Below are positions 3,088 to 7,784 of a stretch of 7,784 nt of DNA, piece by piece. A program made the position numbers and the translations under genes. The notes beneath the pieces are model-generated. The model searched no databases, was not told where the DNA came from, and saw nothing but the letters and a program-made list of their open reading frames with translations. This stretch comes from Methanosarcinales archaeon (GTDB lineage Archaea > Halobacteriota > Methanosarcinia > Methanosarcinales > Methanosarcinaceae), in the NCBI GenBank assembly GCA_012329085.1, contig JAAXQB010000232.1:1-7784 (forward strand), in the 5' to 3' direction. The number at the start of each line of letters is the position of its first letter. The first letter of the stretch is position 1.

Positions 3088-3573
3088 TTAATAGTTATGT
3101 TTTGAAATAGCAAGGTGTGTGAGCCCAGCAGCTATTGCATCAACCTCATCATCATATTTAATTGTGTGTGGAATATGAATTAACCTATTTATCATTGCAA
3201 GAACCTCTTTTTTTGTTGCACGCCCATTTCCAGATACAGCCACCTTGATAGCAGAAGGGGAATATTCACCCACTGTAAGCCCAAGTTTACACGCCTCATA
3301 CAATACAACACCTCTTGCTTCAGATACATGCATTGCGGTTTTTTGGTTTGTGCTAAAAATTAATGTCTCTATAGAAATGTCGGTGGTTTTGTATTTGTTT
3401 ATAACACGCACCACTTCTGCACCTATGAGCACAAGTCTTTTATGAAAAGGAAGCTTTGCGCAAGTTTTAAAACACTCCGAAAACAACAACTTGTCTTTTT
3501 GATTAAAATCTCTTTCAATAACAGCAAAACCAACTCTTTCAAAACCAGGATCTATTCCAAGTACTCTTATCAT
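3088..3573 (-). CDS. ruvC: Crossover junction endodeoxyribonuclease RuvC
   Basis: Cytosolic dimeric nuclease that cuts Holliday junctions symmetrically after RuvAB branch migration, completing homologous recombination and fork repair. The 161 residues are the usual length for RuvC (about 155-190). The RNase H-like fold opens with LGIDPGFERVGFAVIE (acidic Asp8), continues with SIETLIF (Glu69) and ends with DDEVDAIAAGLTH (Asp142 and Asp145). These match the four catalytic carboxylates of the family (Asp7, Glu66, Asp138, Asp141 in E. coli). The start ATG overlaps the yebC TGA as ATGA (3570-3573), so translation is probably coupled to yebC and no separate ribosome binding site is needed. The product ends SKHNY-TAA. 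No convincing terminator is seen before the next gene. Confidence 0.95.
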   Translation of the reverse strand: MIRVLGIDPGFERVGFAVIERDFNQKDKLLFSECFKTCAKLPFHKRLVLIGAEVVRVINKYKTTDISIETLIFSTNQKTAMHVSEARGVVLYEACKLGLTVGEYSPSAIKVAVSGNGRATKKEVLAMINRLIHIPHTIKYDDEVDAIAAGLTHLAISKHNY

Positions 3574-4103
3574 ATTTTTACATTTACAAAAACATCTTGT
3601 ACATCATCATTTTCCTCAAGTTCATCTATTATTTTTTCTAACATAATGGTATCTTTTTTCGCAAGAGAAATTGTTGTTTTTGGAAGCCATTCCAATTCTT
3701 TTTTATCAAAATTCCAAACAACAGAGCCTTGCCCAGCAAGAGTTGCTCCGTTTTTTGTTAAAATATGTTTAATTTCTTGAGAAGTTCTATTATTATTATC
3801 AGTTAATCCATTAATAACCAATGCCGAGCCACCTGGTCCATATGCCTCATATACAACCGTAGACATTTGCAAAATATCCTTACCAACACCTCTTTTTATT
3901 GCGCGGTCTATATTGTCATTAGGCATATTTACAGACTTGGCTTTTTCAATAATCGCACGGAGCGTTGGTGAATTAATATCACCACATACTTTTTTTGATT
4001 CTAAAGAGAGTAATCGTGCTATTTTACTAAAAATTTTACTTCTTTTTGCATCAGTAATAGCTTTCTTGTGTTTTATTTTTGACCATTTATTATGTCCTGA
4101 CAT
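3570..4103 (-). CDS. yebC: YebC/PmpR/TACO1 family protein, short form lacking the middle domain
   Basis: The family was long annotated as DNA-binding regulators; the mitochondrial homologue TACO1 is a translational activator, and a ribosome-linked role is now favoured. The start is the canonical MSGHNKWSKIKHKKA, followed by DAKRSKIFSKIAR and the YEAYGPGGSALVI core. At 177 residues it is well below the usual 235-250. After GSVVWNFDKK (126-135), where family members run on into the DEDELMEAALEAGAEDV domain, this protein goes straight to ELEWLPKTTISL and the C-terminal LIDELEENDDVQDVF-type segment. About 55-65 residues are missing in frame, with no sign of a frameshift. It is first in a two-gene unit with ruvC (4-bp overlap), as often seen in bacteria. 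No Shine-Dalgarno is visible; a perfect TATAAT sits 17 bases upstream of the ATG. Confidence 0.92.
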   Translation of the reverse strand: MSGHNKWSKIKHKKAITDAKRSKIFSKIARLLSLESKKVCGDINSPTLRAIIEKAKSVNMPNDNIDRAIKRGVGKDILQMSTVVYEAYGPGGSALVINGLTDNNNRTSQEIKHILTKNGATLAGQGSVVWNFDKKELEWLPKTTISLAKKDTIMLEKIIDELEENDDVQDVFVNVKI

Positions 4104-4229: not shown

Positions 4230-5252
4230 TTATAATAATTTTTCTTGCCTATCTTTTGGAATTTCGTGTCCAAGATGTTCATAAGCACGAACCGTTGCAA
4301 CTCTTCCTCTAGGAGTTCTCTCCATAAAACCTAATTGTATTAAATATGGTTCATAAACTTCCTCAATAGTTAGCGACTCTTCGGATAAAGATACAGCTAT
4401 TGTTGAAAGACCTACTGGGCCACCATTAAAATTATTTATAATTATTTCAAGTATTTTCCGATCAATTGAACCAAGCCCCATTTCGTCAATTTCAAGAAGA
4501 AGTAGGGTTTTATTTATTACACTTTTTGTAAGTGAGGTTTTTGTTATTTGAGCAAAATCACGACAACGCTTGAGAAGGTAATTTGCTGTGCGTGGAGTAA
4601 ATCGACTTCGTTTAGCAATTTCTCGAGCAGCCTCTTTCTCAATTTCTATATTAAGAATTTTTGCAGACCTTAAAACTATTTCAACGATTTCTTCTTCCGA
4701 GTAAAATTCAAGCCTAAATATTCCGCCAGAAAAACGGGAACGAAGAGGAGAGGAAAGTAGAGCTATTCTTGTTGTCGCTGCTATTAGTGTAAATGGAGAT
4801 AATTCAAGTTGTACAGTGCGAGCCGAAGGACCTTTTCCAATCATAATATCAAGAGTTCCAGATTCCATTGCTGGATACAAAACCTCTTCAATAAATTTAT
4901 TTAATCTGTGTATCTCGTCAATAAATAAAATATCTCCAGGAGAAAGGTTGGTTAAAACAGAAGCAAGGTCACTTACTTTTTCGATTGCTGGACCAGAGGT
5001 AGTTTTAATTTGACTGTTAGTTTCTCTTGCTATTAGATTTGCAAGAGTTGTTTTACCAAGTCCAGGTGGTCCATAAAACAGAAGATGTTCAGGACGGTGC
5101 CCCCTCTCTTGTGCTGCTGTCAAGAGTATGTGTAAATTTTCCTTAATACTCTTTTGTCCAACATATTCACTCCACGACAATGGACGAAGTGTGTTATCTA
5201 AAAGACCAGCAGTTTTTTCGCCATCACTATTTTTATGTGAACTACTTGACAT
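4230..5252 (-). CDS. ruvB: Holliday junction branch migration ATPase RuvB
   Basis: Hexameric AAA+ motor that, loaded by RuvA, pumps DNA through Holliday junctions in the cytosol. The 340 residues match the family length. After a short hydrophilic N-terminus comes LRPLSWSEYVGQ, then Walker A GPPGLGKTT (61-69, Lys67), Walker B LFIDEIH (Asp112, Glu113), sensor 1 AATTR (158-162), the arginine finger in SPLRSRF (168-174) and sensor 2 TPRTANYLLKR (Arg221). The C-terminal winged helix (about 265-335) carries GGPVGLSTIA and ERTPRGRVAT, the DNA-contacting region. All motifs are intact. It lies upstream of yebC-ruvC with a 126-bp gap; ruvA is not in the window. The start ATG is followed by SSSSHKNSDGEK and lacks a Shine-Dalgarno. 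A + strand promoter overlaps this start codon (5246-5274), so transcription in the two directions may interfere. Confidence 0.96.
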   Translation of the reverse strand: MSSSSHKNSDGEKTAGLLDNTLRPLSWSEYVGQKSIKENLHILLTAAQERGHRPEHLLFYGPPGLGKTTLANLIARETNSQIKTTSGPAIEKVSDLASVLTNLSPGDILFIDEIHRLNKFIEEVLYPAMESGTLDIMIGKGPSARTVQLELSPFTLIAATTRIALLSSPLRSRFSGGIFRLEFYSEEEIVEIVLRSAKILNIEIEKEAAREIAKRSRFTPRTANYLLKRCRDFAQITKTSLTKSVINKTLLLLEIDEMGLGSIDRKILEIIINNFNGGPVGLSTIAVSLSEESLTIEEVYEPYLIQLGFMERTPRGRVATVRAYEHLGHEIPKDRQEKLL

Positions 5253-5274
5253 ATATTCTTTTATGTGCTAAATT
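5246..5274 (+). promoter_or_regulatory. Putative sigma70 promoter of the + strand structured RNA
   Basis: TTGACA at 5246-5251 is a perfect -35. After a 17-bp spacer, TAAATT at 5269-5274 is a 4-of-6 -10 preceded by TGC, an extended -10. Transcription would start near 5281, 28 bases before the closing stem of the RNA at 5309. The -35 overlaps the ruvB start codon on the other strand. The only gene-like object downstream on this strand is the folded RNA. Confidence 0.55.
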
Positions 5275-5294
5275 ATTAATAGTTTGATTCGCAA

Positions 5295-5428
5295 CAGCTT
5301 TTAGTAATAAGTAATATGCGATACATAAGTCTCTAAGCGTTAATATGTTTTTTTTCGAGGAATTTTTGGTGTCCTGTTTTTACGGGGTTTTACTGAGTAT
5401 ATCCTTAGAAAAAATTTCAGCTTTTAGT
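5295..5428 (+). repeat. 11-bp exact direct repeat, leader copy and internal copy
   Basis: CAGCTTTTAGT occurs at 5295-5305, just before the closing stem of the structured RNA, and again at 5418-5428 inside it. The internal copy supplies the 5' arm (CUUUUAG) of the small hairpin 5421-5442. The leader copy could compete for the same 3' arm (CUAAAAAG) if transcription starts near 5281. Confidence 0.6.
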
Positions 5429-5477
5429 GTAGTGCTAAAAAGTGTCTTTTAGAGACTTGTGTATCGTATTTTATTTT
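5309..5477 (+). ncRNA. Structured non-coding RNA, 6S-like architecture (candidate)
   Basis: No frame in the 256-bp pilB-ruvB gap looks coding. On the + strand, 5309-5337 pairs with 5448-5476: 22 contiguous pairs (5316-5337 with 5448-5469), one U.U mismatch, then 6 more. The wobbles G5311.U5474, G5318.U5467, U5326.G5459 and G5337.U5448 become A.C mismatches on the minus strand, so the + strand is the RNA. Inside lies an unpaired 5' strand with a U8 run (5338-5359). The apical arm (5360-5367 with 5410-5418, one bulge) carries hairpins 5371-5376/5383-5388 and 5393-5397/5404-5408, again with G.U pairs. A small hairpin (5421-5427/5435-5442) sits on the 3' side of the bubble. The 3' end is UUUUAUUUU. 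Closing stem, large bubble with 3'-side hairpin and apical arm at about 170 nt recall 6S RNA, the RNA polymerase decoy. Signature motifs of SRP RNA, tmRNA and RNase P RNA are absent. A dead transposon-derived palindrome is the main alternative. RNA status is moderately likely; the 6S identity is a guess. Confidence 0.55.
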
Positions 5478-5494
5478 AAAAAATTAAAATAAAA
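5469..5494. repeat. A/T-only 11-bp hairpin between pilB and the structured RNA
   Basis: TTTTATTTTAA at 5469-5479 pairs perfectly with TTAAAATAAAA at 5484-5494 around AAAA. It begins 14 bases past the pilB TAG and overlaps the 3' end of the + strand RNA. It could help end transcription arriving from either side, but it contains no G.C pair and is not followed by a clean T-run on either strand. Confidence 0.45.
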
Positions 5495-5508: not shown

Positions 5509-7188
5509 CTAAACAGAATCTTCAATATTAATAACCCTTCTTAACTCCTCTACAGAAGTTTCTCCATTAACTATTTTAACTATACCATCTTCTGTCATAT
5601 TAAGAATACATTGAGGTTCTGTAATTTTTGCGATCTCTTTCTCGCTGGGGCTACTAGATATGACAGACCTAACTGCACTATCCATTAACACTGCTTCATA
5701 TATACCAACACGACCACGGTATCCAGTGTTATTGCATTCACCACACCCGACAGCTTCCCAGAGTTGTTTAAAGGAGCGATCTTTTTTTTCTTTTTTATTT
5801 GCTCCAGCAAGTATTTTTGTGATTAGTTCAAATTCTGTTTTTTCTGGAGTATAGGCTTTTTTACAAGAAACACATAAGCGCCTCATAAGTCGTTGAGCCA
5901 TTGATGCAAGCAACGCAGAACCTATAACTTTTGGATTAATACCAAGGTCAATTAAGCGAGGAATTGTACCAGATGCATTGTTTGTATGTAGTGTTGAAAA
6001 AACAAGATGTCCTGTTAATGAGGCATTTATAGCAATTTTTGCAGTCTCACTGTCGCGAATTTCTCCAATCATAATAACATCAGGATCTTGCCTAAGAGCG
6101 GCGCGTAATCCATTTAAAAATGTATAGTTTGTATTTTTATCTACTTGTGTTTGTGAAATACCTTTTATGTGATACTCAACAGGGTCTTCAATGGTTATTA
6201 TTTTTATTCCAGGATTATAAATAGTTTTCAAAAGTGCATAAAGTGTTGTTGTTTTTCCTGATCCTGTTGGTCCAGTCGTCAATATCATTCCATTTGGTTT
6301 TCTGATTTCTTTTTGAACAATAGATAATAGAAATTCATTCATACCAAGCTTTGGTAATGGTCTGGTTATTGACCTTGGGTCAAGAAGTCTTAATACTACA
6401 TTTTCACCAAAAGAGCCAGGAAGTAAAGAAGTTCTTATTTGAAGTGTTGTTTCACCAAGCTTTACACTAAAACGACCATCTTGTGTGTCTGCATCAACAT
6501 TAAGCTTTAAACCAGAAAGTAGTTTTAAGCGAGCTAAAAGTAGCTTATATGTTTTTTTATCAACATTAACAACATCACACAAAACACCATCAAGGCGGTA
6601 TCTAACACGCACACAATCTTCTTGTGCTTCGGTGTGAATATCTGACGCACCTAATGAAAAAGCCCCTGCAATTAAAAATTCTAGTATCTTTGAGACGCGA
6701 TGGGTTCCTTTTTGGGTAAGCATTTGTTCTGTGTATTTTTTAATACCATCAATATTTTTTGTTTTTTTTACAACCTCAGTAAAGGCCTCTTTTTGTACAC
6801 TAAGGACACCTTTTTCTGTTGTTTGTGTAAATGATAAATCTTTATATCTTTTCCAGATAATTTCAAGTTGATCTCTTGATGTCATATATAGCACTGCGGT
6901 ATATCCATTGTTTTTAACTTCTTGCAAAACAAGAGCAACTTTTTTGTTTTCTGGAGAAAAGACAGCAATATGTAATGTTTTTTTGACTATCTTAAATGAA
7001 CCAACTAATGCATCTCGTGCAACATCTTCTTTTATCATAGACACAGCTAAGTTGCTTATTGGGGTAGAAGACATTTCAATATAGGGTAATCCATATTTAA
7101 CAGAAAGCATACGAACAAGAGCTCGCTCCTCTTTGATATGCAATTCCTTTATTTGTTTCTCTCTTTTTTTGTCATCAAACTGTATCAT
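5509..7188 (-). CDS. pilB: Type IV pilus assembly / type II secretion ATPase (PilB/GspE family)
   Basis: Hexameric cytoplasmic ATPase that drives pilin polymerisation at the inner-membrane platform. The 559 residues hold an N-terminal T2SSE/MshEN-type domain (about 25-115) and a linker. The catalytic region follows: ASDIHTEAQED (181-191), then RYRLDGVL; Walker A GPTGSGKTT (306-314, Lys312); Asp box ITIEDPVEY (331-339); Walker B DPDVIMIGEIRDSETA with Glu376; and His box LTGHLVFSTLHTNNA (His394, His401). A zinc-type tetracysteine is complete: C439-x2-C442 and C482-x2-C485, separated by a lysine-rich insert. The tetracysteine and intact Walker B fit an assembly ATPase rather than a PilT retraction ATPase. 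PilB and GspE cannot be separated by sequence alone; PilB is preferred because type IV pili are the common system in this type of bacterium. No other pilus gene lies in the window. No Shine-Dalgarno is present; a TTGTTT-17-TATTAT promoter sits upstream. Confidence 0.92.
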   Translation of the reverse strand: MIQFDDKKREKQIKELHIKEERALVRMLSVKYGLPYIEMSSTPISNLAVSMIKEDVARDALVGSFKIVKKTLHIAVFSPENKKVALVLQEVKNNGYTAVLYMTSRDQLEIIWKRYKDLSFTQTTEKGVLSVQKEAFTEVVKKTKNIDGIKKYTEQMLTQKGTHRVSKILEFLIAGAFSLGASDIHTEAQEDCVRVRYRLDGVLCDVVNVDKKTYKLLLARLKLLSGLKLNVDADTQDGRFSVKLGETTLQIRTSLLPGSFGENVVLRLLDPRSITRPLPKLGMNEFLLSIVQKEIRKPNGMILTTGPTGSGKTTTLYALLKTIYNPGIKIITIEDPVEYHIKGISQTQVDKNTNYTFLNGLRAALRQDPDVIMIGEIRDSETAKIAINASLTGHLVFSTLHTNNASGTIPRLIDLGINPKVIGSALLASMAQRLMRRLCVSCKKAYTPEKTEFELITKILAGANKKEKKDRSFKQLWEAVGCGECNNTGYRGRVGIYEAVLMDSAVRSVISSSPSEKEIAKITEPQCILNMTEDGIVKIVNGETSVEELRRVINIEDSV

Positions 7189-7458: not shown

Positions 7459-7784
7459 ATGAAAAAAATGATAACAACTTTTATGGTGATATTTTTTATC
7501 ACCATAACTTCAATCACTAACGCTGATGCTGGAAGTATTCAGCGATACAGCGTTGAAATCGGGGCACAACCCGATGGAGGGATTTTGGGCAAATCCTTGG
7601 GTGTTTTGTCTAATGCTGGATTGGGGTATGCCCTGGGCTCGCTACACAGTAGTGACGCCGCGAGGAGCGAGGCGCTGAAGTACGGGCGCCAATCGTTTGA
7701 TTTTTACAACCGTGTTGAGAGGCACACGGTTGTAAGACAATTACGAGACGGTCGTCTCGTTGTTGTAGAGAGCAATCGTGCTCC
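7459..7784 (+). CDS. Secreted glycine-zipper protein, unknown function (3' end outside window)
   Basis: Open from the ATG at 7459 to the window end, giving 108 complete codons. A classical signal peptide is visible: MKKM, a hydrophobic core TTFMVIFFITIT, and cleavage predicted after ADA (Ala22-Asp23-Ala24). The mature part contains glycines at 40, 44, 48, 56 and 60 with Asn52 in phase, an uninterrupted four-residue period typical of glycine-zipper membrane helices, in GGILGKSLGVLSNAGLGYALG. An arginine-rich segment follows (RQSFDFYNRVERHTVVRQL, then RDGRLVVVE). Consensus promoter and Shine-Dalgarno suggest strong expression. By hand count GC is about 58% over 7561-7680 against roughly one third in the other genes, with codons such as GCC, CGC and GGG that neighbours avoid, which suggests transfer or unusual selection. 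I do not recognise a named family. Membrane or cell-surface action is inferred. Confidence 0.8.
   Translation, partial: MKKMITTFMVIFFITITSITNADAGSIQRYSVEIGAQPDGGILGKSLGVLSNAGLGYALGSLHSSDAARSEALKYGRQSFDFYNRVERHTVVRQLRDGRLVVVESNRA
7704..7783 (+). repeat. Three consecutive hairpins inside the right-edge gene
   Basis: TTACAACCGTGT at 7704-7715 pairs perfectly with ACACGGTTGTAA at 7724-7735 (12 bp, 8-base loop). ACGAGACG at 7743-7750 pairs with CGTCTCGT at 7753-7760 (8 bp, 2-base spacer). GAGCA at 7770-7774 pairs with TGCTC at 7779-7783 (5 bp). All lie in coding sequence and the third may extend past the window. Confidence 0.6.

Follow-up and report, generated by a model that had tools for sequence, protein, structure and literature searches.

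The pilB-ruvB spacer of the window

The window, a 7,784-nt stretch of DNA, contains a predicted structured RNA on its plus strand in the spacer between two minus-strand genes, ruvB (4230–5252; NCBIfam PRK00080.1, 459 bits, above the cut-off) and a gene for a pilB/gspE-type ATPase (5509–7188; TIGR02533 at 452.5 bits and TIGR02538 at 441.7 bits, both below the curated cut-offs). Further out, positions 3570–4103 encode a YebC-type protein that scores below the curated cut-offs (177 aa, compared with 238–245 positions in the two best models) and overlaps ruvC by 4 bases. A plus-strand gene start at 7459–7782, truncated by the window end, encodes a secreted-looking protein with a signal-peptide-like start by eye and zero NCBIfam or Pfam matches.

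The presumed promoter of the RNA is near-consensus and oriented away from ruvB. Its −35 element, TTGACA (5246–5251, plus strand), shares bases with the start codon of the minus-strand ruvB gene, and its −10 element, TAAATT (5269–5274, plus strand), follows at a distance of 17 bp. Placing the start site from this promoter gives a presumed 5′ leader at 5281–5308. The closing stem, P1, consists of 28 pairs between 5309–5337 and 5448–5476 with a single internal U.U mismatch (5315/5470), and four of its pairs are G.U (5311.5474, 5318.5467, 5326.5459 and 5337.5448). The initial annotation had described this stem and its four plus-strand wobbles, and both are found in the sequence as claimed; it was also correct that the stretch lacks a coding frame, since no ORF of at least 60 aa overlaps the RNA.

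The predicted fold of the plus strand has a free energy of −60.3 kcal/mol (z = −5.84), which was equalled by none of 200 shuffled sequences; the minus strand is less stable (−39.4, z = −4.11). Twenty-seven of the 28 P1 pairs form in this fold, with position 5337 going to a small hairpin instead. P1 leads to three arms separated by 0–4 unpaired bases, all on the plus strand: H1 (5337–5348, 4 bp in the window), the central arm H2 (5350–5414), which carries the most conserved core, and H3 (5418–5444) on the 3′ side of the junction. In 100 held-out relatives (see below), the modelled part of P1 was 96.1% paired, H1 89.3%, the helices of H2 77–96.5% and H3 91.7%. The held-out alignment also places a UGG/CUG module (U.G, G.U, G-C) within H2, with its 5′ half at 5367–5369 and its 3′ half at 5393–5395. 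Instead of the large central bubble described initially, the window RNA has a closing stem that opens into a three-arm junction. The proposed U-rich 3′ end likewise gave way to an A+T-only hairpin past P1 (about 5470–5493, plus strand) with no U run behind it. In the fold, this hairpin competes with the 6 outermost P1 pairs, and its predicted role may be to form the RNA 3′ end or a pilB terminator on the opposite strand.

Conservation of the RNA among relatives

A RuvB scan of 563 relatives yielded 80 loci that were kept, the top ones from Parcubacteria. Because the RuvB of the window is 70–74% identical to that of the best loci, the window probably belongs to the same class. In most top relatives, the spacer upstream of ruvB carries, antisense to that gene, an RNA of the same anatomy preceded by a TTGACA promoter; L008 is an exception, having pilB and ruvB and lacking an RNA match. 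Searches of the 80 ruvB loci with the window RNA by nhmmer and blastn gave no convincing match. Fifteen RNAs were delimited by hand, and all 15 fold as a closing stem plus arms (L009 with two arms only). Twelve of these make up alignment A1, in which compensatory double changes occur at 29 of the 36 predicted pairs; L002, truncated by a contig end, was excluded from A1–A4.

Covariance model R1 was run on 239 genomes of the phylum that includes Candidatus Kaiserbacteria (G005, locus L005) and gave 15 matches at E ≤ 0.1. Both PilB and RuvB adjoin 12 of these, PilB alone one, and neither the two weakest; because the R1 search is blind to context, this synteny provides separate support. For alignment A2, 30 sources were searched, with L069 and L092–L095 falling below threshold, and model R2 comprised 25 sequences and 45 pairs. 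At E ≤ 0.01, R2 detected the RNA in 248 of the 334 genomes of the G005 class (Parcubacteria), or in 229 of 315 without the 19 genomes counted as suppliers of training sequences. The 86 genomes with no match reflect loss, incomplete assembly or missed detection. A single match was present in 241 of the 248 positive genomes and two matches in seven; four of the latter (G010, G296, G316 and G405) show, in the local sequence, an antisense match that coincides in position with the sense one. Many copies scattered through the genome, which the initial annotation had linked to a mobile element, were thus not the pattern in these relatives, and the mostly single matches together with the strand asymmetry described below led to the rejection of a mobile palindrome. 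In the phylum sample R2 matched 16 of 239 genomes: the 13 context-supported R1 genomes, G142 (both neighbours), G204 (RuvB) and G144 (neither). Alignment A4 was freed of antisense rows by retaining the best row per locus; L144 fell below threshold, L141 stood in for its duplicate L093, and the duplicates L081, L096, L098, L099, L102 and L108 were kept out. The usual neighbours are all missing at L094, L095 and L144.

Covariation was evaluated in alignment A3, which contains 100 further loci from the R2 class matches listed, none of them in R2 training. These loci score 63.5–87.7 bits, and the weaker members of the 248 lie outside the inspected set. Double compensatory changes occurred at 39 of the 45 pairs, including all four pairs of H3, in an alignment that is biased toward the R2 structure because its sequences were both found and aligned with R2. 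None of 500 shuffles reached any of five measures, 90.5% of cells were paired as against 37–52% for slid structures, and places 1–21 in a mutual-information ranking of well-filled columns were all taken by model pairs. The covariation that the initial annotation had named as a check is therefore strong. The top-ranked pair outside the model (A3 columns 117/252) is non-canonical: it alternates between A.C and G.U and borders the conserved GG/CC of H2.

The part of the RNA matched by the model spans 108–216 nt in 158 members (median 147), and P1 extends uninterrupted beyond it by a median of 5 pairs (11 in the window). The inner end of P1 has the consensus GGCAAU/AUUGCC. Within the UGG/CUG module the G-C pair is present in 100 of 100 A3 sequences, the G.U pair in 87 and the U.G pair in 71. 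H1 is variable; L085, L089 and L090 have 1–2 nt in its place. In most members the junction is closed on its 5′ side or occupied there by a variable hairpin: among 156 branching folds, the number of unpaired bases between P1 and the next helix was 0 in 106 (as in the window), 1 in 30, 2–3 in 14 and 4–17 in six (17 in L009). The 5′ junction segment is also poorly conserved (A3 columns 18–49, 100 sequences), with a best column of 71%.

Both PilB and RuvB were neighbours at 96 of 104 inspected loci. The remaining eight had PilB only (three), RuvB only (four) or neither (one), and three of them (L169, L173 and L237) fall short because their contigs end. PilB was present in 29 of 29 loci from L096 to L124 and RuvB also in 28 of 29 (L122: a 32-residue piece). 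In none of the 100 A3 loci did either gene lie on the strand of the RNA. The RNA nevertheless persists where ruvB (L087, L200 and L236) or pilB (L143 and L215) is not adjacent. Of 157 members whose upstream sequence was long enough, 150 had TTGACA as the best −35 site, 140 of these 150 with a 17-bp spacer, and TTGACAT was present in 97 of the 157. TTGACA occurred on the sense strand in 152 members compared with six on the opposite strand, and the mean promoter score was 10.6, compared with 8.1 for both shuffled and reversed sequence. Five members are without TTGACA (L143, L191, L194, L200 and L228), which TTGACT replaces in three. With respect to altered neighbourhoods, the promoter is retained in L087 and L236 without adjacent ruvB and in L215 without adjacent pilB, but it is absent in L200 and L143. 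At the other end, T runs of at least 5 were found within 70 nt downstream in 87 of 158 members and A runs in 16, the window not being clear. The sense strand folds better than the antisense strand in 150 of 158 members, and the covariance models likewise favour it (108.1 versus 43.3 bits in L012, for example).

6S RNA, other known families and a rod variant

The initial annotation had assigned the RNA a 6S-like layout. PMC8414754 describes canonical 6S RNA as opening, between its closing stem and its apical arm, into a large single-stranded 5′ central bulge, and as carrying a product-RNA template whose first ~11 nt are conserved. The 6S family model RF00013 gave no match in the window, at L001, L003, L005, L007 or L009, or in any of 25 relatives' genomes, as against matches in 6 of 14 control genomes. 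Membership in the 6S family was ruled out by this silence together with the closed junction, which leaves an open 5′ bulge absent from most members (0–1 unpaired bases in 136 of 156 folds). Contrary to the initial impression that Patescibacteria have no well described 6S RNA, RF00013 matched 22 of 239 phylum genomes at E ≤ 0.1, three of them over the Rfam cut-off; five of the 6S loci were rescanned, with three over the cut-off and two just under. R2 in turn gave no match on 12 phylum 6S loci. The 22 6S-positive and 16 R2-positive genomes did not overlap among the 239, which is weak evidence because only ~1.5 overlaps are expected by chance.

A second, rod-shaped variant was found in the class that includes Candidatus Uhrbacteria (G011), where R2 gave seven weak hits among 115. 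Six of these (L246, L247 and L249–L252) carry CACGACAAGCATGG just inside P1; L248, which is without this motif, was excluded from alignment A5. The six rod loci have a similar H2, lack H1 and H3, and are not adjacent to PilB or RuvB; at four of these loci, TTGACA precedes the RNA by 50–78 nt. The neighbouring genes include a large VanW-like gene in the four loci scanned for it (L246, L249, L250 and L252) and trigger factor, identified by Pfam in L246 and by resemblance in L247. Among 252 loci, the pattern CACGACRAGCAUGG (R = A/G) is present in seven: the six just named and L017, whose copy is antisense and upstream of ruvB. When the seven rod sequences were aligned, 27 of 39 pairs were doubly compensated and an invariant 10-nt 5′ bulge was present, which corresponds to the open bulge of 6S RNA. 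This bulge may resemble the antisense of a 16S rRNA primer site. Rfam gave no match at the RNA of the six rod loci scanned (L246, L247 and L249–L252).

Model R3, built from the seven rod sequences, was run on 75 sources, of which 58 were counted with the class RNA. It gave weak sense matches at the class RNA of L110, L087 and L085 (E 0.0035–0.013) and weaker ones at L105, L103 and L120 (E 0.044–4.9), along with an antisense match at L105 (E 0.048) and a match at the wrong place in L011 (E 0.11). The class RNA and the rod variant are probably homologous, the cross-matches being weak when taken alone.

The proposal of an unannotated plus-strand structured RNA in the pilB-ruvB spacer was borne out by its conservation, and a search with all Rfam families, taken up to E 5, found nothing at its position in the window or in L001, L003, L005, L007 and L009. 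Among 35 class genomes, 33 had an RNase P RNA match (28 of them exceeding the cut-off) and 33 had a tmRNA match above the cut-off; weaker tmRNA matches, present in all 35 genomes, include tRNA-like ones and are also given by archaeal controls. A copy of either at the RNA locus was rejected, both being found separately in most class genomes. SRP RNA was found by neither RF00169 nor RF01854 in the window or in any of the 35 genomes. These models match 12 of 14 and 9 of 14 controls, respectively, and their silence alone is no proof of absence because both also miss Bacillus subtilis and a Bacteroides control. An SRP identity for the class RNA was considered at this point and dropped when the Ffh RNA-binding domain (PF02978) was also found in 0 of 35 class genomes, compared with 14 of 14 controls. 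The SRP54-type GTPase domain (PF00448) gave one partial match in 35 (E 7.7e-6; controls 14 of 14). From these sequence searches, the SRP pathway seems to have been lost in the G005 class.

Possible functions of the class RNA

Taken together, the comparative evidence indicates that positions ~5281–5493 almost certainly represent one copy of a class-wide, mostly single-copy family of structured RNA genes. Because the RNA is class-wide, mostly single-copy, preceded by a very strong promoter and retained without adjacent ruvB or pilB, it very probably acts in trans and should be abundant. We judge it to be a housekeeping RNA, with expression, abundance and essentiality all at the level of prediction. 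It would serve a conserved protein partner as a folded scaffold, and that partner might grip the wobble module of H2 and the inner end of P1. The likeliest partner would be the housekeeping RNA polymerase, with the RNA taking the place of 6S RNA through another architecture. The 6S slot is our preferred guess, since 6S RNA was undetected, the size, promoter and 3′ hairpin fit, and the second variant has 6S geometry; a 6S-like job is possible, and the identification of polymerase as partner is tentative. The missing open bulge and conserved template of the class RNA, as modelled, count against such a role. A trans-acting ribonucleoprotein scaffold with RNA polymerase as its likeliest partner is the best overall explanation, at a probability of roughly 0.4. 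On balance we lean toward a Patescibacteria family of two architectures, junction and rod, forming a core and probably essential ribonucleoprotein that either replaces 6S RNA or performs a new job.

A trans-acting housekeeping RNA could equally serve the ribosome, a translation or membrane-targeting factor or an unknown protein, and would then form a ribonucleoprotein of a new kind. The same gene evidence applies to this reading as to the polymerase one, and the class layout mostly offers no open promoter mimic. It also fits that RNA-protein machines appear to be unusual in the class, given that neither SRP RNA nor the Ffh domain was matched in the 35 genomes. No result points to a particular partner; we consider this reading quite possible at somewhat under even odds. 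Less probable, and on the whole unlikely, is a local regulator that, transcribed in the direction of pilB from the strand opposite the ruvB leader, silences or insulates read-through between the two genes. The near-strict synteny would fit a local role too, as would the opposite orientation of both neighbours and the overlap of the window −35 element with the ruvB start codon, but interference does not need a conserved multi-arm fold, the RNA persists where one or the other neighbour is not adjacent (in three of five such loci with its promoter), and the second variant is located elsewhere in six genomes.

A highly diverged SRP RNA, tmRNA or RNase P RNA would account for the SRP RNA that was undetected elsewhere in the class genomes, yet RNase P RNA and tmRNA are found separately in most of them, the Ffh domain gave no match in 35 and Rfam is silent at the RNA in the window and five relatives, which makes this reading very improbable. 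We give still less credence to a DNA-level element, such as a mobile-element end or a replication or recombination site. A long palindromic stem adjoining ruvB is what such an element might look like, but the stem is mostly present once per genome and the model scores, folding and TTGACA placement are all biased toward the sense strand.

RNAs common to most of a bacterial class are few: rRNA, tRNA, RNase P, tmRNA, SRP and 6S. The class RNA, with strong covariation and no Rfam entry, is a candidate addition to this list. Its host group is large and uncultured, and SRP RNA, Ffh and 6S RNA all went unmatched in the genomes sampled from it. The RNA offers a concrete handle on transcription and protein targeting in these minimal cells. 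Among the matching titles and abstract openings, a scope that stops short of preprints and most subscription papers, none described it.

In comparison with 6S RNA, the class RNA has a similar length, a long closing stem, an apical arm and a 3′-side hairpin (H3), but it differs in its mostly closed junction in place of an open 5′ central bulge, in having no well conserved product-RNA template and in giving no RF00013 match. The second variant, a rod with a 5′ bulge, shares the canonical 6S layout as given in PMC8414754. SRP RNA, like the class RNA, stands alone as a structured molecule and has a long helical arm; no SRP model matches the class RNA, and the Ffh RNA-binding domain gave no match in the 35 class genomes sampled. 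The large orphan bacterial RNAs raiA, OLE, ROOL and GOLLD have elaborate conserved folds, and comparative genomics preceded knowledge of their function. Although the scanned sequences of the class RNA match none of the Rfam families, it resembles these RNAs in having a conserved elaborate fold that was found by comparison.
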